Shown here: one piece after another, positions 569-9,953 of the stretch
Layout: each line of letters opens with the position of its first letter
Position numbering within the stretch: position 1 is the first letter of the stretch
Virus record (IMG/VR): IMGVR_UViG_3300030090_004910
Coordinates: 1-23,809 of that record
Source: a virus
Length of the DNA: 23,809 nucleotides
Strand: one strand, 5' to 3'
Position numbers and translations under genes: made by a program
The notes under the pieces: generated by a model
Database searches by the model: none
What the model was told of the DNA's origin: nothing
The model's input: the letters and a program-made list of their open reading frames with translations, nothing else

Positions 569-1030
569 TTATATCAGTTTATATACCGTTTTGGAGTTCT
601 CTCTGACCGCCTTGAGACATCTGTTCCTGTTTTCCTCCTCGCTTACGTAGCTTACGTGTACCCAGTCTGGGTTCTCGTCGTCTCCGAATTCCCATATCAT
701 CTGGTCGAAGTCAAGATTTTCCTTTATGAAGTTGTACATACCGTAGTTCTTCATGTTGCCGTACGTATCGTCTATATCTATCGCTTGGCCCTTGCAATGT
801 TGTGACTTGGAACTTCCTCCTATCGCGCGATTCAATTCGGGCGAGCGGAAGAATGAGTTTATCTTTATGGGTTTTCCGACGTACTCTCTTAGCGGTTCGA
901 ATATCTTTTCCGCCAGCAGCCGCATGTTCTCGAGCTGCTTCTCGTCAGGTTCGTTCTCCAAACCCAGTCTCTTAGCAGTAACACTGAACGTTCCCTCTCG
1001 GTAACTTATGTGTTTGCTTATGTTTTTCAT
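569..1030 (-). CDS. M15-type D-Ala-D-Ala carboxypeptidase-like endolysin
   Basis: This is a 153-residue zinc peptidase that would cleave peptide cross-links in host peptidoglycan at lysis. The M15A signature is complete: SKSQHCKGQAIDID places the ligands His78 and Asp85 in the S-x-H-x-x-G-x-A-x-D motif, and DWVHVS supplies the third ligand His125; Glu114 in IWEFGDD is a candidate general base. The N-terminal 60 residues (EKIFEPLREYVGKPIKINSFFRS) are typical of phage M15 enzymes. There is no signal peptide or cell-wall-binding domain, so release needs a separate membrane-disrupting protein; the 94-residue TM protein two genes upstream is the nearest candidate. The start is 10 bp after the thioredoxin-like gene with the leader TTAAAATCAA and no Shine-Dalgarno. 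Confidence 0.93.
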   Translation of the reverse strand: MKNISKHISYREGTFSVTAKRLGLENEPDEKQLENMRLLAEKIFEPLREYVGKPIKINSFFRSPELNRAIGGSSKSQHCKGQAIDIDDTYGNMKNYGMYNFIKENLDFDQMIWEFGDDENPDWVHVSYVSEEENRNRCLKAVRENSKTVYKLI

Positions 1031-1040
1031 TTGATTTTAA

Positions 1041-1454
1041 TTAGAATGCGGACGCCGTGTTTATTTCGTCGATGGCGTCTTGTATTTCGCTTATGGTTGT
1101 TGGCAGCTCAAGATCGAGTCCCGCCTTGAAGCTTTCCTCTACGCTGCCGTCCTTGAATATAAGTATGGTCGGAACCATTCTTATTTTGTATTTCTTTTTG
1201 GCGTTTGCCGCCTTGGCTATATCCACCCTGTAGTATAAGGCGTCTTTTATTTCTTGCCATTCGTTCAGGCAGTTCTGCGAATTGAAGTCCGCCCAAAACT
1301 CTACGACTATCGTGCTTTCGTTGTCGTCGCCGAATGCGCTGCTGTTAGATATCGCGTCCTCGAAGCTTGAGTCGTCAAGCCAGTACTTGTCAGGTACGTC
1401 TATTTGCGAGATTGACATCAGCGGTATTAAAATTAGAATTAAGTATTTTATCAT
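1041..1454 (-). CDS. Secreted thioredoxin-fold protein lacking the CxxC site
   Basis: 137 residues. Residues 1-17 (MIKYLILILIPLMSISQ) form a signal peptide, with no lipobox Cys, so the mature protein should be periplasmic. The rest follows the thioredoxin fold: beta strand plus active-site segment VVEFWADFNSQNC (50-62), helix LNEWQEIKD, then RMVPTILIFKDG (92-103) with cis-Pro95. The usual W-C-x-x-C is replaced by W-A-D-F-N-S-Q-N-C, leaving only Cys62, so ordinary dithiol oxidoreductase activity is not expected. I recall similar thioredoxin-like proteins with lost cysteines from marine Bacteroidetes viral contigs. Its ATG overlaps the TGA of the 94-residue membrane-protein gene (ATGA), suggesting coupled translation and perhaps a shared envelope role; a binding or scaffold function is my inference. 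Confidence 0.85.
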   Translation of the reverse strand: MIKYLILILIPLMSISQIDVPDKYWLDDSSFEDAISNSSAFGDDNESTIVVEFWADFNSQNCLNEWQEIKDALYYRVDIAKAANAKKKYKIRMVPTILIFKDGSVEESFKAGLDLELPTTISEIQDAIDEINTASAF

Positions 1455-1735
1455 CTCCTGGTCTGTATTTCGTACAATCTCTCGTCTATCTTGTCGAGCT
1501 TGTCCTTTATCTCCTCGACATCGTCTTGAGTATCTAGTATGGTGGATCGTACAAGTTCGTCTTTTAAATCGTATTCCGTTCTCGATATCTCAGGCTTCGG
1601 AAGCTCCTTGGCTTCGGCTATGTCAGCCTGCATTACGAAATACATACTGGCGAGCGATACAGCTCCACCAATGATTATTCCTATCGTTTTGAGATCGACG
1701 GTTACTTTGGTATCTTCTCCGATTTGCTTTGCCAT
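1451..1735 (-). CDS. Single-TM coiled-coil protein, candidate holin or i-spanin
   Basis: 94 residues. A short N-terminal region (1-16) is followed by one hydrophobic segment, TIGIIIGGAVSLASMYFVMQ (17-36), a Pro-containing linker (ELPKPE), and a charged heptad-like helix from about 57 to 92 (DVEEIKDKLDKIDERLYEI). The N-terminal lysines against the acidic C-terminal flank suggest N-in/C-out topology, with the coiled coil in the periplasm. That is the layout of an inner-membrane spanin; size and position beside an endolysin would also fit a holin. I recall near-identical architectures in marine phage contigs, beginning MAK(E/Q)IGEDTK. No lipobox-bearing o-spanin partner is visible nearby. It overlaps the downstream thioredoxin-like gene by 4 bp. 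Confidence 0.85.
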   Translation of the reverse strand: MAKQIGEDTKVTVDLKTIGIIIGGAVSLASMYFVMQADIAEAKELPKPEISRTEYDLKDELVRSTILDTQDDVEEIKDKLDKIDERLYEIQTRR

Positions 1736-1748
1736 TTCTATTGTTTTA

Positions 1749-1793
1749 CTAGCAAAGGCCGCAATAGCCTCCGCATATTGAGCATGTATTCAT
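1749..1793 (-). CDS. Cys-rich micro-ORF (14 aa), speculative
   Basis: ATG at 1793-1791 begins one base after the TAA of the 393-residue gene and runs 14 codons to TAG at 1751-1749, encoding MNTCSICGGYCGLC. Four cysteines in 14 residues form CxxC-x3-CxxC, the spacing of a metal-binding knuckle. It occupies almost the whole gap before the 94-residue TM gene, whose ATG is 13 bp downstream. The TAA-T-ATG spacing resembles that before the 98-residue gene, which favours translation. Against it: very short ORFs arise easily by chance, and no family is known to me. It may be a functional micropeptide, a translational coupler, or accidental. Confidence 0.3.
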   Translation of the reverse strand: MNTCSICGGYCGLC

Positions 1794-1794
1794 A

Positions 1795-2976
1795 TTATCT
1801 AAATGTTATGTTTATTCCGAAATTCGTGTGGTATATCTCAGAATCCCAGAACTTGGTGTACTCGCCTTCAGCGAATATACCCAGTGACTTGTTTATTTTC
1901 CAGCCGAGCATCAGTCCGAACTGATAGTCGTCCCATTGCTCAAGCTCAGCGTCTTTTTTCAATCCGCCCTTGCCCCAGTTGTTTCTGTTTAGGTAGCTTA
2001 CGTTTTCGTCTCCCTGCAGATACTTGTGGTATGGCAGTATCCAGTTTCCGTATGCGTGAAGCCAAAAGCTTGACTTGTAGTGGTAGAAATCGAAACCGAC
2101 TATCGGTGCGACCTCTCCGAAGGCGTCTATTTCAGACCAGGCCTCCTCGTTGAACCTGTTCATAAGGTCACCGAATATCAGGTCTCTGAACTGTCTGTCG
2201 GTATACGCGACTATGTTTCCGTCAGCGTCTATCCAATACCAGTCGAATATCTGGTTGCCTGACTCGTCTGTTGACTGATAGAATATATCGTCATACCCGT
2301 ACTCGAAACCGAGGCTGTACCAAGGGTTGAGGGCGTTTCCGTTCTCGTCTTCCTCGTTTAGCCATATCTCGATAGGGTTATACCCGTAAGGCTTTTGATG
2401 AGTTCTGTATATTGCTCCGGCGGATAGGCTGAACTTCTTACCTAACGGTAGTCGGCCTCTTACCTCGCCTGACATGTATTCGAATCCCACCTTGCCGGAT
2501 TCTCTTGCCTCAAACTTTCCTATATGGTATTTGCCGGTATGTCTTACGAATAGTCTCTTGTTGTCGAACTCGTCGCCGTTGATTCTTTGCTTTTCCCAGT
2601 TCAAAAGGTACTCTAAGCCCTTTACCGCTGATGTAGGCGCGGAAAGACCTATGTTGTTTTCCGTTCCGTTATAGAAGTTAGGCTTGTCTTCATATCCAAA
2701 TCTGGCTAACTTACGAATGCCCACCCCGTATCTGTAATCGAACGGGTGATATACGGTTTCGTCAACCACCTGGGGTATATCGTAAAGGTCATCAGGATTC
2801 GTTCTTATGAAATAATCCGGATTCTCGAGTTTAGCGTTTCCTATGTTTCCAGCAACGTATACGGTTCCGTACTCAAGAAAATCTGCATACAGTTCCTTAA
2901 AGAAGTTTTTCTTTTCTTGCGCGCCGACGCTAAAAGAAATTATAAGTATTAATATAGCTATTACTGTTTTTCTCAT
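1795..2976 (-). CDS. Phage-encoded outer-membrane beta-barrel-like protein
   Basis: 393 residues. Residues 1-19 form a clear signal peptide (MRKTVIAILILIISFSVGA|Q). The mature chain lacks hydrophobic helices and has many alternating aromatic/polar stretches typical of amphipathic strands, for example GKVGFEYMSGEVRG, KFSLSAGAIYRTH, YQFGLMLGWKINK, SLGIFAEGEYTKFW and the terminal FGINITFR. Tyr, Trp and Gly content is high and the end is strand-like, as in outer-membrane barrels, although the last residue is Arg after Phe. Acidic loops such as NEEDENGN and TDESGNQIFDW may face outward. Its ATG overlaps the TGA of the 2326-residue virion gene, so it is made with late proteins. Possible roles are outer-membrane modification at lysis, blocking superinfection, or receptor masking; none is shown by sequence. 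A secreted non-barrel protein is the alternative. Confidence 0.8.
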   Translation of the reverse strand: MRKTVIAILILIISFSVGAQEKKNFFKELYADFLEYGTVYVAGNIGNAKLENPDYFIRTNPDDLYDIPQVVDETVYHPFDYRYGVGIRKLARFGYEDKPNFYNGTENNIGLSAPTSAVKGLEYLLNWEKQRINGDEFDNKRLFVRHTGKYHIGKFEARESGKVGFEYMSGEVRGRLPLGKKFSLSAGAIYRTHQKPYGYNPIEIWLNEEDENGNALNPWYSLGFEYGYDDIFYQSTDESGNQIFDWYWIDADGNIVAYTDRQFRDLIFGDLMNRFNEEAWSEIDAFGEVAPIVGFDFYHYKSSFWLHAYGNWILPYHKYLQGDENVSYLNRNNWGKGGLKKDAELEQWDDYQFGLMLGWKINKSLGIFAEGEYTKFWDSEIYHTNFGINITFR

Positions 2977-5900
2977 CTTAACTTTAGTTTCTTTGTATTT
3001 AGTTTTAATTTACGTAGATTTAGGTTCTTTTTAAGTTTTAATCCTCTATTTGTACCGGTTCCACCATAAGGAAGGTACTTTTCTTTACCTATATCCAAAT
3101 CCCATTCGCTCCAACCACCCAAAAGGGCTATCTTTTGCCATATCTCTGTATCCTCTCTCAATGCCGCCTCGATGTTGTTGTATTTCCTTATTACCCTGTC
3201 TAACGGAATATTAAATGCTGCCGAAAGTATCTGCCCGGCTATCATATATGCCGGGTTTTCCAGGCTGAATCCCTGTGATCTTATTTCGTCTTTATCCCAT
3301 TTTAACGACCTGAATGCGTTTCTTACCTTGGTGACCTTTGATGATATAGGCGGCGAGAAATCCAGTAGCTCTAAGGCGGCCTCTTCGTAATCGGGCCTTG
3401 CCTTCTGCTCTTCCTGCCACAGTCTCAGTATCACGTTTTTGAACGTTGCAACGGCCGCACCTTGCCAACCCATTCCTCTAAGTAGCGAGTCGGCCATACC
3501 GTTTGCTGTATTTATTACCTTGTCTTGCGGTATCTCATCGTCATCGTCGAACGCCATTGTGAAAAGAGCATTTTGAATGCCGTTGAATATTACGTTCTGT
3601 ATAGCCCCGTAATACACGATCTTTGACACATTGGCTCTCCAGTCCCCTCTTCTGTTCTTGAGGTCAAGAATGGATTTCTTTATTATTCTGTTGTACTGCA
3701 TCGGCGTGTTCGCGAAAGCAAGAACCACACGCCCTAAAGGACCGGCCTGCTGCATGCTTATTCTGTCAGTCCTGCTCGACTGCTGCGTTTCCTCTGCTAT
3801 TTCCTGAAAATCAAGGAACGCCTGCTCTTCCGCTTTTTTCTGTTCCATTCCCTGCTTTAGATACGTTGATACTCGGTTTCGATACATGGTCGCCCCTCCT
3901 GTCGCTATTGCCATGCTATCCGCTATCTGTGTGAATAGAAACCCTTTTTTGAGAAGGTAACTTATGGCACCCTTCATTCCGCCTGTCTTCGCAACGTCGG
4001 CTATTTCCGACTCGGTTACGTTTATCTTTAGGCCCTGCCTTCTTTTGGTAAGAAACGGAGAGTTCATTAGATACATAACGTCTTTCCAGTATTGAGGCTG
4101 ATTCGCGAATGCCTTACCTGCTTTTATCACGTTGTTGTCCGTCCAGTTTATGAAGTTTACGTTGGATATCATCTGAAGCGCGGCAGACCTAACGTTAAAG
4201 AACATTATGGCGCCTACCGAGCCGTTTATCCAATCCATTATCTCATCTACGTTCTTGTTTCCGGATTGCAGCTTGTTGGTTCCTCTTCTTATTCTTTCGA
4301 GTGAGTTTTCCAGAGCCTCGACGTAATTGTTTCCGTAAAGAGCCCTAAGCTTGTTCTTGTTCTTTTCGGAGAATATCATCTCAGAGTTCTCTATGAACTC
4401 GGAAAGAAACTCCATTCTGTTCACCTTTCTTATGCTGTCTACCAGGTCTGACGTTATAGTTCCGCCTTGCCAATTGCTGTCGGGCGCGGGATATTCTCTT
4501 CCCTTCTGTATCTTCATAAGGCCTTCCGCGAAATCCCTGTATTGCGTTTCGGAATTCATGAATCTCATAAGCTCTTTTGAATCTTTCTTTGAAAGACCCG
4601 GCACCTCAAGGCCCTGCTTGTTCCATATGTATACCCTGACCGCGTCGGAGTAGCTATACCCCTCTATAGCCTCTTCCTGTAGCGTTTTGGGGATTTTAGG
4701 AAACATCTTTTTCAATGCCTTATAGTCCGTTGATACGCCAACCTGCATTCTGTCTACCGCCCTTGCCGTCCTGGCTATTGGGTCCAGAAGCTTTTCCTTG
4801 AACCACATGAACTGAGAGTCTCCGACTTTTCCCTTACCGAGCATCCTGTATAGAAGCCCTGCGAAGTCCTCTGCAGACGGAGGTATCAAATGAAGCGAGT
4901 TCTTTCGCTTGCCTATCGCCTTTGCCCTGGCGGTTGAGTATTCCTTGAACCACTCGACACCAGTGTTTTTCTCCAGTATGTCGTTGAATTGCCTGTCTAT
5001 ACTCTTTGTCTTGCTGTATTTCGCCTGTTGTACGTCAGACTTTACGTCAGCCACGTTTAGAATATCCTGAACCGCCTTCACGTTCTTGTACGCGTCGTCG
5101 GCGAAATAGAAGTCGTTGTAGCCTTCTGCTACCTTGCTTACTATCCAGTTTGCCTTCGACTGCGGGCTTCCGTCCTCGAGGCCCGTTATGTTTGCCAGCG
5201 GTATGTCGAGGCCCATTCCCTTTAGAAACTTACGTATCGCGGGAGCGGCGCTTTGAGGTCTTGCGGTAAGTATGAATATGTCTTTCGCACCGAACTTGTC
5301 TTTCCTTCTTTTGGCCAGGTCGAACAGCGGTCCCTTTTTGCCTCTTATGACCTTCTCGAACTCAGAAAAATCGAACTTTGCGCCTTTCGCTTCTAACGCG
5401 TCCGATTCTTTCGCGAATTGTGTAGCATTAAGTTTGCCTTTGGAGCCGTCTGGGAGCGTGTAAAGTACCTTAGAAGCCGTCCTGGCTAGCGTATCGTCAA
5501 AGTCGAAAACGCTTATTCCCTTTCCTTCGCCTTGTTTCGATGTTCTCGAGTAGTTTACGGCCTTGTCGTAATTTGACAGGATTAGATTCTGCTTTACGGC
5601 GTTTTCTATGCCTTTTAATATGTCAGGAAATGTATTTTGGTTTGCCCTTGAGGCTATCTTATCGGCGTCTTTTTCTTTCTTTATTGCATCTAGGCTTTTA
5701 AGCACGTCTGACGGATTCATTACAGTATTCGGAAGCACGAAGTGCAACGATGGATCTGAAATTTTAGAATGAATTTCTTCTATCGGCTGCTCGCTTATGT
5801 AAGTTTGCTCACCTATACCCTTAACCTCATCGAATTTTTTACCATCTTTTTTCGAAACTACGCCTCTTGCTTGCCCAAGTATCAGATCTTGCAAATCGTC

Positions 5901-8900
5901 TATTAGCTCCTGATCCGTGTAATTTTCTCCTCTTTTTGCCGCCTCTCTTATGATAGACTGAACGAATCTTGTGGTTCTTAAAGATTTTGAATAATGCTCG
6001 TCATGAGCCCCGTCTTTTAAAAGAGACACATCTGTAAAAGATACAAAAGGAACCAACTTTCTTATAAAATGCCCTTGATAGCTGGACTGCAGCCCTATGA
6101 TGTGGTTTATGCCGGCGGCCAAATCTGGCGATTTTTTAACTATAGCAACCAACGATGAAACCAAATCAGCCAATACGTTTGCTTTGGCTATGTTTTCTTT
6201 TACCACGGTTTGTTGCAGATCCTCGTTTGTTTTTAGATCTTGTAGAACATCTTTCTTTAATTTGCTTGTGCTTAATACAGACTTTCCCGCATAGTTCAAT
6301 GCGTTTTTTATTTCATCAGAGTTTTTAGCATCCTTTTCTAATTGTTTGTCTAAAAATAAAGCTTCACGCGCTGATTTTATATTCGGATATATCATACCCG
6401 ATTTTCCGAGTGTTCCGTCTAAATCGTCGCGGCCGGTGCCCTGCATGGTGTAGAGTAATACTGTTTTTTGCGCAGTCGTTAAATTAGCTGCCAATATAGG
6501 CACAACGTCCGTTTTTATAGCGTCTTTAACTATAGGATCTTCTTTGGCTAGCTTTTTTCCATTAAAAATCTGAAAAGTTTCATCCAATCGGGTCGCTTCT
6601 TTAAATCTAGATTTTTGATCCGAAATGGTTCTACTGTACATTATATCGCTTTTTCCAGAAGCTATTTTATCACCTATTTTTATTTTATTGGATATACTCA
6701 GGTCAGGCCTACTGTCTATATCCTGCCTGACGTAGTAGTTGGTTACCAATCTTGACGTAAGCTCCAATAAGCCTTTTATAGCCTGTGCCTCAGATGTTCT
6801 CATCTTGAAGTCAGGGTCGACCTTGTTGTCCTTTATTCCGAAAAGAGCAAGAAAGTCATTTCTGTTTATACGGTTTTTGCTCCACTGAAAGTTATTGCCT
6901 ATTCTTTTGCCTTTGGTGTAAAAGGCGTTAAGAAGGTTTCGAGGTACACCCGTGGGGTCACCACCTATTCTCACCAGTTTTTTCGCACCCTTTACCTTTG
7001 ACTGCACGCTTATTATGTCGGTATTGGCCTTAGGCATGAGCTTTATAAGCCTATCCGCATTCTTTAGTATCCATCTCTGTATCTCGGACACGTTGTCGCC
7101 TTGCCTTAAATTATCTTTAGGGTTGGTTATCCTGCTTCCCGGTATATTGAATATCTTACCGAATGCGTCAGCGGCCAGCACTCTAAGCTTTTTGAAATTG
7201 AGTTCCGATAGGTCTCCCTCCGTAAGCTTTGACGCAAGATTTTGCGTTTCTTTTACAAAGTCACTGGTTTCTTTTCCTGTAGGTAAAACAGAATCTGGCT
7301 TTATCTGCCTTACGGGCTTTTCGTCTTTCGTCGTCGTGGTCGTTTCCTGCACGGATATCTCCGCCTCTTCCTTACGTGTGAGGTCCTCTATTCTTCTTGA
7401 CTGCGCGACACCTACGCCCGCCTTGTCGAATTCGCTGCTGTAGAACTTCGAGCCTCTTCTACCTATAGTTGCGTTTATCCATGTGCTGAACTCCGACTCC
7501 GACGGATTGTACGTTCTCATGACGCTCGGAAACTCCGAGTTCACGAACGATATCGCGTTCTGGGGCGCTATGTCTCCCTTTCCTATATTGTAGCCTATGG
7601 CCGAAAGGGCCGCGCTCGTGTACTGCTTGTGGAAATCCAGAAGTTCAGTAGGCTCCAGCCTCTCGTATCTCCTGGCCATATCGTTCAGGGTTCTCGATTC
7701 CAATACTCTTCCCCGTTTTTTGTCCTCTTCTTTTTCGTCCAGAGCCGTGGCTTTTTTGCCCTTCTTTATGTTCTGCGAGTATGACTTTACGAAGTCGTAT
7801 GCCTGTTTGGCGTTGCTGAACTTAGCCTTTTTAAACGGCGTAAACCTGTTCAGTAATGACTCTATGCCCGCTTTTATGTCGTCGAATATGTCGTTGTCGA
7901 ACTCTATTTCTCCCTTAACTACCGCATCGGAAAAAGACGTAAAGTATTCCTCGTAATATAGTGACTCGGGATTTTCCATCTCGTTTCCGTCTTTGTCGAG
8001 TTTTATATTCCCGTCTTCATCTCTCTGATACCTGTAGTTGACGTCTATTCTTTTCTGGACTATATTATACAACCCGTTCGATCTCAATATATTTTTAAAA
8101 TCCTCGGTTATTTTTTGCTGCTCTTTGGGATCTCCAGTAAACTTGCTTTTCAGTAATCCGTGCAAAAGCTCGTGTGAACCCGCAGATATTGCCCCCACTT
8201 TAGCGGCAACTTCATTGTTTATGACTATCTTGTTGTCTTCTGTGAATGCTGCGTCGGCATCAGGATCAAGGCCTCTATCTGTCATTCCCTGCCTATTCGT
8301 CTCGATCACTTCAAATCCCCTTGATTCCGCAGCGGCTCTGATCTGCTTTACGTTTTTCTTTAGCAACTTTTGGTTTGCTCTTTCCTCTGCTATTCGGAAT
8401 ATATCCTTATTCTCCAGTATCTTTTGTTCAGCCCTTTTGCTTATACTTGCCTTTGTATTGGTTCTTGAATATTCCTCGTTTCGTATTTGGAGTACAGACT
8501 TGTCTATCGACGACAGGTTTTCCACGTACCTTATTCTTTCCTGGTCCGTCATTTCGTCTATTGAACGGGCAACTCTGATTTTGTTCATTCTTATTCTTGA
8601 CTCAAGTTGCTTTATCTCGTTCAAGGCGTCCTCGTCCCTGGTATCTATGTACTCTCCCTGAAGCTCTTGTATTCTTTGAGCAAATTTTTGGTTTTCAGCC
8701 AATACTTCCCTTGGAGTAAACCTTTCTACCATAAGGTTTCTCTGCCTGTTTTTGACCTGCCCTAACGTTGCCATACCGCCACCTATCAGTGAGGATATCA
8801 AGAACGTGTCGAAAGACCTCCTGAGCATTGCCATACCGTCGAAGTTTCCGTCCTTATCGTAAAACCTGTTCAGCCCTATCGATTGGTCGAACGCGAAGTT

Positions 8901-9953
8901 TATCTCTTGCGCACCAACCTCCGATACACCCTCGAACAACATGTCCATACCTAGTCTCTTTAAGAACTCCCTTGTGACAAACTTGCTTGCTGCTTCACCG
9001 TATTCTCCAGCACCACCTATACCTAACGCTCTTTTGGCTATTCCCCTGGTAACCTGTTCGCTTATCGCCTCTACGGTACCCTGCATAAGCGCGTTGCCCA
9101 GCATCAACGCGCCTCTCTTTTCTGGCTTTAGCTCAGCGAGCTCCTGGTACGAGTTGCCGGCCTCCGATGCCCCTAGAATAAACAGTCCTCCAGGCATTGC
9201 GGATATAGCCACGGAAGGTACCGCGCCCAACACGCCCTCTACGGTCTGCGAAAGCGCCGTCCCGAATTCTCCAGCCAATAGGTTTTCGCCTATGGTTTCA
9301 TTCCACTTCGCATCTTCCCTGCCTACTTTCTGTATATTCTCGAGCTCTTTACTCGCAACCGAAAGAAAGTCACTCTGGTTTTGAAATGGCAGAATAAGCT
9401 TTTGTAGTGGCTTTGTCGCGTCTGCCATACCAATTGCGTTCTCGTCCGTAAAACCCTGCGCCTTGAATACCTCTACCAATGCCGCGTCTAATACAGACGG
9501 AACGAAATCGGTAAGGCCCTTTGCTATATCGACAGTTGACTTTACCGGCGGTATGATAAGCTTACTGACAGCTTCGCCTTGTTCAACAGCTCTATCTATA
9601 TTACCTGTTGCTCCAGCGATCAAAGTACTTACTGGATTAAATAGTGTTGATATTCCTAATCCTACAGCCTTACTGGTTGCCCTATCTTTTCTTCTTTGTG
9701 TTTCTTGCTCTTCCACCAATGCCCTGTTTTCTTCTCTTCGCTGTCGTGCAAGAGCTTCTCTTTGTTCGCTAAAAAAATTGTTTATGTAATCGTAATCCTC
9801 TTTCTTCGGCGAGTCGCCAGTATACTTCTGGTAAAACTGGTTTATAGCATCCGAGGGGTCCATCGTCAATGCGTACCTAACCTTTTGCTCTATGTCTTCG
9901 GCACTTAGGCCGGAGGCGTATCTGGCGTAAAGCGCTCTGAATATTTCTTCCAT
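2973..9953 (-). CDS. Giant polyvalent virion protein with zincin-like and HAD domains
   Basis: 2326 residues, about 30% of the window. Order: N-terminal helical region (1-85); Gly/Ala-rich hydrophobic segments about 90-130, 155-180, 225-310 and 375-400 that could insert in membranes; charged coiled coil about 400-550; a zincin-like site H594-E-L-L-H598; mixed alpha regions of the kind found in phage large polyvalent proteins; an HAD phosphatase core with D1484-F-D-D-T, T1563 in ILTARP, K1600 and D1619-D1620; a further helical region from about 1640 to 2290; and a Lys/Arg/Leu-rich tail (last about 27 residues). Large multi-domain proteins next to internal virion genes are generally packaged and ejected with DNA, where their enzymes act on the incoming genome or host. 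ATG follows the upstream TAG directly (TAG-ATG) with CAGGAT about 8 bp before, and its TGA overlaps the barrel gene. The exact substrates are unknown. Confidence 0.93.
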   Translation of the reverse strand: MEEIFRALYARYASGLSAEDIEQKVRYALTMDPSDAINQFYQKYTGDSPKKEDYDYINNFFSEQREALARQRREENRALVEEQETQRRKDRATSKAVGLGISTLFNPVSTLIAGATGNIDRAVEQGEAVSKLIIPPVKSTVDIAKGLTDFVPSVLDAALVEVFKAQGFTDENAIGMADATKPLQKLILPFQNQSDFLSVASKELENIQKVGREDAKWNETIGENLLAGEFGTALSQTVEGVLGAVPSVAISAMPGGLFILGASEAGNSYQELAELKPEKRGALMLGNALMQGTVEAISEQVTRGIAKRALGIGGAGEYGEAASKFVTREFLKRLGMDMLFEGVSEVGAQEINFAFDQSIGLNRFYDKDGNFDGMAMLRRSFDTFLISSLIGGGMATLGQVKNRQRNLMVERFTPREVLAENQKFAQRIQELQGEYIDTRDEDALNEIKQLESRIRMNKIRVARSIDEMTDQERIRYVENLSSIDKSVLQIRNEEYSRTNTKASISKRAEQKILENKDIFRIAEERANQKLLKKNVKQIRAAAESRGFEVIETNRQGMTDRGLDPDADAAFTEDNKIVINNEVAAKVGAISAGSHELLHGLLKSKFTGDPKEQQKITEDFKNILRSNGLYNIVQKRIDVNYRYQRDEDGNIKLDKDGNEMENPESLYYEEYFTSFSDAVVKGEIEFDNDIFDDIKAGIESLLNRFTPFKKAKFSNAKQAYDFVKSYSQNIKKGKKATALDEKEEDKKRGRVLESRTLNDMARRYERLEPTELLDFHKQYTSAALSAIGYNIGKGDIAPQNAISFVNSEFPSVMRTYNPSESEFSTWINATIGRRGSKFYSSEFDKAGVGVAQSRRIEDLTRKEEAEISVQETTTTTKDEKPVRQIKPDSVLPTGKETSDFVKETQNLASKLTEGDLSELNFKKLRVLAADAFGKIFNIPGSRITNPKDNLRQGDNVSEIQRWILKNADRLIKLMPKANTDIISVQSKVKGAKKLVRIGGDPTGVPRNLLNAFYTKGKRIGNNFQWSKNRINRNDFLALFGIKDNKVDPDFKMRTSEAQAIKGLLELTSRLVTNYYVRQDIDSRPDLSISNKIKIGDKIASGKSDIMYSRTISDQKSRFKEATRLDETFQIFNGKKLAKEDPIVKDAIKTDVVPILAANLTTAQKTVLLYTMQGTGRDDLDGTLGKSGMIYPNIKSAREALFLDKQLEKDAKNSDEIKNALNYAGKSVLSTSKLKKDVLQDLKTNEDLQQTVVKENIAKANVLADLVSSLVAIVKKSPDLAAGINHIIGLQSSYQGHFIRKLVPFVSFTDVSLLKDGAHDEHYSKSLRTTRFVQSIIREAAKRGENYTDQELIDDLQDLILGQARGVVSKKDGKKFDEVKGIGEQTYISEQPIEEIHSKISDPSLHFVLPNTVMNPSDVLKSLDAIKKEKDADKIASRANQNTFPDILKGIENAVKQNLILSNYDKAVNYSRTSKQGEGKGISVFDFDDTLARTASKVLYTLPDGSKGKLNATQFAKESDALEAKGAKFDFSEFEKVIRGKKGPLFDLAKRRKDKFGAKDIFILTARPQSAAPAIRKFLKGMGLDIPLANITGLEDGSPQSKANWIVSKVAEGYNDFYFADDAYKNVKAVQDILNVADVKSDVQQAKYSKTKSIDRQFNDILEKNTGVEWFKEYSTARAKAIGKRKNSLHLIPPSAEDFAGLLYRMLGKGKVGDSQFMWFKEKLLDPIARTARAVDRMQVGVSTDYKALKKMFPKIPKTLQEEAIEGYSYSDAVRVYIWNKQGLEVPGLSKKDSKELMRFMNSETQYRDFAEGLMKIQKGREYPAPDSNWQGGTITSDLVDSIRKVNRMEFLSEFIENSEMIFSEKNKNKLRALYGNNYVEALENSLERIRRGTNKLQSGNKNVDEIMDWINGSVGAIMFFNVRSAALQMISNVNFINWTDNNVIKAGKAFANQPQYWKDVMYLMNSPFLTKRRQGLKINVTESEIADVAKTGGMKGAISYLLKKGFLFTQIADSMAIATGGATMYRNRVSTYLKQGMEQKKAEEQAFLDFQEIAEETQQSSRTDRISMQQAGPLGRVVLAFANTPMQYNRIIKKSILDLKNRRGDWRANVSKIVYYGAIQNVIFNGIQNALFTMAFDDDDEIPQDKVINTANGMADSLLRGMGWQGAAVATFKNVILRLWQEEQKARPDYEEAALELLDFSPPISSKVTKVRNAFRSLKWDKDEIRSQGFSLENPAYMIAGQILSAAFNIPLDRVIRKYNNIEAALREDTEIWQKIALLGGWSEWDLDIGKEKYLPYGGTGTNRGLKLKKNLNLRKLKLNTKKLKLR
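5070..5525 (-). other. HAD-superfamily phosphatase domain inside the 2326-aa protein
   Basis: All four HAD motifs are in register across about 150 residues. Motif I is VFDFDDTL, with nucleophile Asp1484 and acid/base Asp1486. Motif II is FILTARP with Thr1563, motif III is QSKANW with Lys1600, and motif IV is YFADDAYKN with Asp1619 and Asp1620. Between motifs I and II lies a Lys-rich cap-like insert (GSKGKLNATQFAKESDA...). The complete motif set argues for catalytic activity; HAD phosphatases of this size commonly act on nucleotides, sugar phosphates or nucleic-acid ends. I recall a very similar embedded domain from marine viral contigs. The substrate cannot be read from the sequence. Confidence 0.88.
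8130..8260 (-). other. HExxH zincin-like segment inside the 2326-aa protein
   Basis: The segment AISAGSHELLHGLLKSKF contains His594-Glu595-x-x-His598 on a predicted helix. It is preceded by a strand-like KIVINNEVA, as in gluzincin/metzincin-type folds and in the zincin domains described from phage polyvalent proteins. No clear third ligand (such as the Gly-x-x-His of metzincins) follows within about 10 residues; downstream acidic residues (the YYEEYFTSF region) could provide a glutamate ligand as in gluzincins. Protease function is therefore plausible but not certain. Confidence 0.6.

Follow-up and report, generated by a model that had tools for sequence, protein, structure and literature searches.

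How do phages that carry no recognisable spanin get through the outer membrane of their host? In a 2018 survey (PMC6139136), about 13% of the analysed phage genomes yielded no spanin, and the spanin-less list includes the marine flavobacterial (Croceibacter) phages P2559S and P2559Y and one Bacteroides phage; the survey asks whether another route through the outer membrane exists and suggests that an outer-membrane protein could serve as o-spanin. The same question is raised by a 23.8-kb fragment of a single IMG/VR virus record (IMGVR_UViG_3300030090_004910, positions 1 to 23,809; this whole stretch is called the window here), in which genes for a predicted outer-membrane beta-barrel (OMB, 393 amino acids), a single-transmembrane coiled-coil protein (TMCC, 94 amino acids) and a secreted thioredoxin-fold protein (TRX, 137 amino acids) precede a probable endolysin gene. 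Our analysis indicates that these genes form a module that is real, widespread and, as far as we found, unnamed, and that its genomic setting ties it strongly to lysis. A spanin-like role at the outer membrane is the best, if unproven, reading of this module.

A linked module among lysis genes

The evidence for the module is mainly its linkage. Each of three TMCC queries returned more than 500 matches in IMG/VR. The searches were seeded with module proteins, and only loci with identical TRX sequences were merged, so that the numbers apply to the sampled set; locus counts refer to 183 distinct loci flanked by 3.5 kb or more on either side. TRX directly follows TMCC in 290 of 301 distinct TMCC genes, mostly with overlapping ends (commonest spacings -4 and -1 nucleotides), and among the 11 exceptions several are additional TMCC copies or are parted from TRX by an insertion. 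OMB lies within 3.5 kb, always on the same strand, at 139 of the 183 loci, and TMCC lies within 4 kb of all 164 distinct well-flanked OMB genes, OMB never being found without it. This linkage is far beyond chance, and the TMCC-TRX pair is the core of the module. The orders OMB-TMCC-TRX, TMCC-TRX-OMB and M15-OMB-TMCC-TRX were all seen; since linkage is kept while the order is permuted, it is not merely inherited synteny. Thus, the co-occurrence of the three families across phages of Bacteroidetes type, which the original prediction had proposed to check, was borne out. No open reading frame in the searched set matched two of the families as a natural fusion would, and no tested copy of the pair matched any lysis-related family of Pfam or PHROG.

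The neighbours of the module are lysis genes of several kinds. Within 3.5 kb, an endolysin (M15 or Amidase_2) is found at 108 of the 183 loci, a holin-like gene at 86, and either of them at 132. The endolysins vary between M15 and Amidase_2 (phrog_822), and the holins between a holin with three transmembrane segments (3TM holin, phrog_3427) and, in T4-like loci, an unlisted protein with two such segments, which we guess to be a holin from its transmembrane pattern and its place. Genes for PAP2-type phosphatases also occur inside the lysis neighbourhood (L123:1315-1869, Pfam PAP2 E=3e-5, below the cut-off; L098:10592-11203).

In the window, the late genes run leftward on the minus strand in the order giant protein of 2326 amino acids, OMB, TMCC, TRX, M15 endolysin and, at the end, a small basic protein, so the row of three genes followed by the endolysin is placed as first described. 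The same description called the cluster translationally linked, and this holds for TMCC and TRX, which overlap by 4 nucleotides (1451-1454), but not for OMB and TMCC, which are 59 nucleotides apart, or for TRX and the endolysin, which are 10 nucleotides apart. The giant gene and OMB also overlap by 4 nucleotides (2973-2976).

Three phage types carry the module. The portal, the capsid and a further structural gene of the window match PHROGs of structural proteins, and its capsid protein shares 38-49% identity with those of ctfjg026, Maribacter phage Panino, the Flavobacterium elemo phages and Cellulophaga phi38:1; the window is a fragment of a Crassvirales-like phage. Its capsid family, phrog_13704, recurs in the records G023, G024, G033 and G035, and in G001 and G005, which have the pair only. 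Six records, 130-181 kb long, contain Gp23 and are thereby T4-like carriers, and an HK97-type siphovirus carrier is indicated by Phage_connect_1, Phage_HCP and HK97-gp10 upstream of the pair in one locus (L187). The signal peptides of TRX and OMB both stop before a nearly invariant Gln, in line with the Q-rule for signal peptides of Bacteroidetes (PMC5837995). Because of these signal peptides, the relatedness to phages of flavobacteria and a gene with a type IX secretion domain beside OMB in one group, the host is likely a member of the Bacteroidetes. In total, the carriers appear to be hundreds of uncultured, mostly marine phages of Bacteroidetes.

Properties of the three proteins

TRX is recognised as a thioredoxin by Pfam (Thioredoxin, E=5.3e-8), by its AlphaFold model (confidence score, pLDDT, 86.4) and by its fold-level matches to thioredoxins, and yet none of 327 distinct module copies has the active-site CxxC; the lone match to this pattern sits in a signal peptide. 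At the aligned WCGPC site, Asn stands for both cysteines (N58 in 274 and N61 in 281 of the 327), whereas the cis-proline is kept in 326. Some of these phages also encode, at other places, cytoplasmic CxxC thioredoxins without signal peptide. These were rejected as the module protein, being a different gene, and their persistence indicates that the loss of cysteines is specific to the module TRX. Since NxxN replaces CxxC while the cis-proline stays, a pattern expected of a binding thioredoxin, we infer that TRX serves as a binding rather than a redox module. Compared with the thioredoxin superfamily (PF00085), it is alike in fold and cis-proline and differs in being exported, in having NxxN and no redox residues, and in having a linked gene partner.

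TMCC has a single transmembrane helix in 293 distinct sequences, as judged by hydropathy. Its heptad positions V73, I76, L80, I83, L87 and I90 are hydrophobic in 100, 74, 100, 99, 100 and 94% of these sequences, respectively. An N-in/C-out orientation is weakly supported, the N-terminal side of the helix being the more positive one in 74%. With its N-terminal transmembrane segment and its coiled coil, predicted to be periplasmic, TMCC has the features of an i-spanin. Tandem TMCC paralogues occur in some loci; a second, divergent copy (phrog_20984, unknown function) stands before or near the first at L004:11140-11454, L007:7681-7986, L133:9347-9670 and others, and several divergent paralogues carry a conserved RIKWPRGEMGALPDDAKQDLRI stretch.

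The AlphaFold (AF2) model of OMB has 12 long strands (pLDDT 84.8), and its leading PDB fold matches are all outer-membrane beta-barrel proteins or barrel-assembly and usher complexes, with low TM-scores and about 10% identity. These matches make the class clear and do not indicate a specific function. With its signal peptide and even-stranded barrel, OMB is, by prediction, an outer-membrane beta-barrel. Thus, the fold or envelope address first assigned to each protein, that is, a barrel with a signal peptide, an inner-membrane coiled coil and a secreted thioredoxin fold without CxxC, agrees with the larger sets of sequences and with the models. OMB shares its fold class with the 12-stranded NanC, with EspP and autotransporter translocators and with OmpT-type porins, but differs from them in lacking a sequence family: no Pfam and no significant PHROG family was found for it. 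Its best viral model match is an unnamed entry, A0A516LKJ4 (TM-scores 0.70/0.80, 22% identity). A single query gave 285 relatives in IMG/VR. In genome_contigs, OMB has only 8 matches. All 8 are on contigs of metagenome-assembled genomes, several under implausible hosts, and are therefore probably binned phage; a bacterial origin of OMB was rejected. Within a long loop, which has low pLDDT, R92, Y95, E96, G104 and E106 are invariant in 90 sequences. Strand parity would place this loop in the periplasm, and it is speculative that it serves as a docking site.

At three loci, an exported cysteine-rich protein of 690-800 amino acids abuts OMB (L426:1895-3958, L438:1821-3968, L474:1557-3965). The L438 copy has a C-terminal sorting domain of the type IX secretion system (Por_Secre_tail), with a match below the cut-off in the L474 copy, as in a phage gene that apparently uses the host's type IX secretion system.

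Table 1. Positions of the module and its parts in the window.
Feature	Position	Strand	Basis
OMB, 393-residue predicted outer-membrane beta-barrel with signal peptide	1795..2976	-	structure model and fold matches
OMB signal peptide, residues 1-19, followed by Q20	2920..2976	-	Q20 almost invariant among 90 diverse homologues
OMB residues 90-119, conserved long loop following strand 2; speculative docking site	2620..2709	-	conservation, model
TMCC, 94 residues, single transmembrane segment and C-terminal coiled coil; i-spanin-like shape, predicted N-in/C-out	1451..1735	-	transmembrane and heptad statistics
TMCC transmembrane segment, about residues 17-36	1628..1687	-	hydropathy
TMCC periplasmic segment (predicted), conserved stretch I50...V62 and heptads V73/I76/L80/I83/L87/I90	1454..1588	-	sequence statistics
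ATGA overlap, TMCC stop and TRX start	1451..1454	-	-4 nucleotides, the commonest family spacing (110 cases)
TRX, secreted thioredoxin fold, 137 residues, without CxxC	1041..1454	-	Pfam, AlphaFold, fold matches
TRX signal peptide, residues 1-16, followed by Q17	1407..1454	-	Q17 nearly invariant
TRX residues 58-61 (N-S-Q-N), NxxN where the redox CxxC would be	1272..1283	-	327 distinct copies
TRX Pro95, cis-proline of the thioredoxin groove	1170..1172	-	P in 326/327
M15 peptidase, probable endolysin, next gene downstream of TRX	569..1030	-	Peptidase_M15_3 E=6.5e-16; endolysin phrog_894 E=6.5e-32

Two further late genes of the window are of note. In the protein of 2326 amino acids (2973-9953), which has no Pfam match, there seem to be a HAD-type phosphatase stretch (FDFDDTLA...) and a zincin-like motif, HELLH. 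The basic protein of 98 amino acids (271-567) matches phrog_7595 (E=9e-15) and part of phrog_220 (minor head/DNA pilot), and a homologue of it recurs close to the module in many relatives.

A proposed role in lysis and its alternatives

In the Crassvirales-like records, other genes already fill two of the lysis roles. A 3TM holin is present in 14 of 14 OMB-bearing records searched whole, which measure 47-105 kb and were taken as Crassvirales-like from their size and gene content, with the capsid family checked for four of them; all six pair-only records have such a holin too. Peptidase_M15_3 was detected in 12 of 14 and 6 of 6, respectively; the two records without it, G023 and G030, may be truncated or have another endolysin. 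The Rz family PF03245 was above the cut-off in 0 of 26 records. Scans with simple lipobox and transmembrane patterns rather than trained predictors, in records of which the completeness is not given, detected neither a lipobox reading frame in the window nor a credible lipoprotein gene in five whole records of 53-69 kb, where one short reading frame loosely fits the pattern. The same scans gave no unimolecular spanin (lipobox plus C-terminal transmembrane segment) in the window or these five relatives, and, in the five, no further coiled-coil candidate with one transmembrane segment beside the lysis genes. That no classical o-spanin lipoprotein is visible, as noted at the outset for the window, thus holds for these five records too.

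The TMCC-TRX pair itself has one more feature of spanins, namely overlapping or adjacent genes in a lysis cassette. TRX and OMB, however, carry signals of signal peptidase I type that end before Gln and have no lipobox; since the o-spanin lipoprotein feature is missing, the module is not classed as a spanin, and by analogy it may work like one. We give about even chances to the proposal that TMCC and TRX, with OMB where present, are a module for lysis of Bacteroidetes hosts that disrupts the outer membrane in spanin-like manner without an o-spanin lipoprotein. A separate phage holin would make the inner membrane permeable, and the peptidoglycan would be degraded by the endolysin, of M15 or amidase type. 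TMCC would sit in the inner membrane, its coiled coil reaching into the periplasm, and be joined through the redox-dead TRX adaptor to the outer membrane, normally by way of OMB. With the wall removed, these joined complexes would draw the two membranes toward each other or break the outer one, in the fashion of spanins. The physical contacts, the topology of TMCC, the adaptor role of TRX and the lysis function are what we infer here. Somewhat more tentatively, the module may represent a third design by which phages disrupt the outer membrane, with a coiled-coil anchor, an NxxN thioredoxin coupler and a beta-barrel for the o-spanin, exchanged among unrelated marine Bacteroidetes phages.

Several observations weigh against this proposal. 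OMB is missing from 44 of the 183 loci and was undetectable in 22 pair-only records, many of them fragments. The outer-membrane partner is therefore not constant, and the pair must be able to function without this barrel, whose place might be taken by a host protein, a lipoprotein or the outer membrane as such. Thus, of the bridge to a phage-made barrel that had been proposed for the window, the linkage, the lysis-gene neighbourhood and the addresses from inner to outer membrane stand, but a three-part bridge of this kind cannot be universal. No recognised endolysin or holin lies within 3.5 kb at 51 of the 183 loci; at L426, L438 and L474 a holin is found just past this cut-off, and there OMB abuts the secreted protein instead of an endolysin. 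The coiled coil of TMCC is short, about 45 residues. No copy in an isolate was found by tblastn with several queries in the phage collection. A profile search likewise gave none in phi38:1, Panino, elemoF and ctfjg026, for which partial stretches were searched, or in P2559S and P2559Y. Finally, lipoprotein genes occur within 3 kb at 32 of 162 OMB-bearing loci and at several pair-only ones, so a conventional o-spanin is possible at some loci.

Among the lipoproteins near the pair (L167:7623-8000, L072:12033-12479, L185:9063-9716), several belong to a family that reads ITHVLAVTEQGDTLRLPI or similar, with Asn/Tyr-rich tails. One lies directly before TMCC at L167, L170 and L181. That such lipoproteins strictly replace OMB was rejected, relatives of these three occurring also with OMB. 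In isolates without the trio, proteins of about 200 amino acids with an N-terminal transmembrane segment and C-terminal amphipathic strands are candidate one-protein membrane-spanning lysis factors, as judged by their sequences: L104:7297-7896 (phi38:1 gp084) and L240:22998-23621 (P2559Y_0023), which both match phrog_25644 (unknown function), and the similar L101:9661-10284 and L102:12153-12755. All of these but the Panino copy (L102) lie beside the endolysin.

Coevolution gave little to decide on contacts. In a direct-coupling analysis of TMCC and TRX (327 pairs; effective number of sequences about 110), the top inter-protein pairs lie near the TRX groove, but control couplings (TMCC-M15, TRX-M15 and holin pairs) score equal or higher, which also counts against the proposed bridge, and the couplings were rejected as contact evidence. 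The tree distances of TMCC and TRX correlate at 0.77 overall and at 0.46-0.67 inside TRX classes, which is weak support for a link.

The strongest rival concerns the timing of lysis. Holin T of phage T4 has one transmembrane segment and a periplasmic domain, and RI is a secreted periplasmic antiholin; TMCC could be a membrane effector like T, and TRX an antiholin like RI, with OMB sensing superinfection and signalling lysis inhibition. The secreted globular partner from an overlapping gene, the tandem TMCC paralogues and the place among lysis genes all fit such a pair. Yet the module is accompanied by the separate holins described above, both in the OMB-bearing and pair-only Crassvirales-like records and, with the two-segment holin-like gene, in the T4-like loci. 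Moreover, neither TMCC nor TRX has similarity to any holin or antiholin family of Pfam or PHROG (for TMCC against holin families, nothing above noise; best match a paralogue, E=0.015), and we know of no antiholin with a thioredoxin fold. We therefore regard this reading as unlikely.

Remodelling of the cell surface, or superinfection exclusion, is an improbable alternative as well. A late OMB would block or replace receptors, and TMCC-TRX would be its periplasmic assembly or tethering factor. OMB is indeed a phage-made outer-membrane protein, highly conserved overall, and the gene abutting it at L426, L438 and L474 encodes a secreted surface-type protein, which makes this reading more plausible at such loci than elsewhere. 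Against this, endolysin and holin still stand alongside the pair where OMB is missing, and the loops predicted to be extracellular show conservation (2.5-2.9 bits), not the diversification expected at an interface of receptor and phage. Quite unlikely is a chaperone function, in which OMB or host proteins would be handed to the BAM complex by the TRX groove while TMCC only holds TRX at the translocon: the groove cis-proline without the cysteines and the fact that OMB never occurs without the pair speak for it, but the pair persists without OMB and lies by lysis genes in three phage types. That the genes are functionally independent hitch-hikers sharing a module boundary is very improbable, for although late-gene islands are often compact and OMB tree distances correlate with those of TMCC or TRX no better than with those of M15, the order is permuted and linkage kept across unrelated phages, with TMCC-TRX adjacency in nearly all cases.

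Relation to known systems

The module is a concrete candidate for another route through the outer membrane, found in several hundred uncultured viral contigs of three phage types, and it makes the question of such a route testable. TMCC followed by an NxxN thioredoxin can also serve as a sequence marker for annotating the lysis regions of marine Bacteroidetes phages.

Among known systems, the T4 proteins T and RI resemble TMCC and TRX in joining a single-transmembrane protein that has a periplasmic domain to a secreted periplasmic partner, but differ in that separate holins accompany the module and that no homology was found. Unimolecular spanins, the sole spanin type found in Bacteroidetes phages by a 2025 survey (PMC12596118), are exemplified by T1 gp11; the module would share their role, whereas it consists of three separate proteins and has no lipobox and no C-terminal transmembrane segment. 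In contrast to two-component spanins such as lambda Rz/Rz1 (Kongari et al. 2018, PMC6139136), the module has no similarity to PF03245 and no lipobox, and its partner is a thioredoxin fold of signal-peptidase-I type, usually with a beta-barrel. Like them, however, it has a type II inner-membrane coiled-coil protein, an overlapping gene for a secreted partner and holin and endolysin genes beside it, and, like them, its parts would connect the inner and outer membranes.

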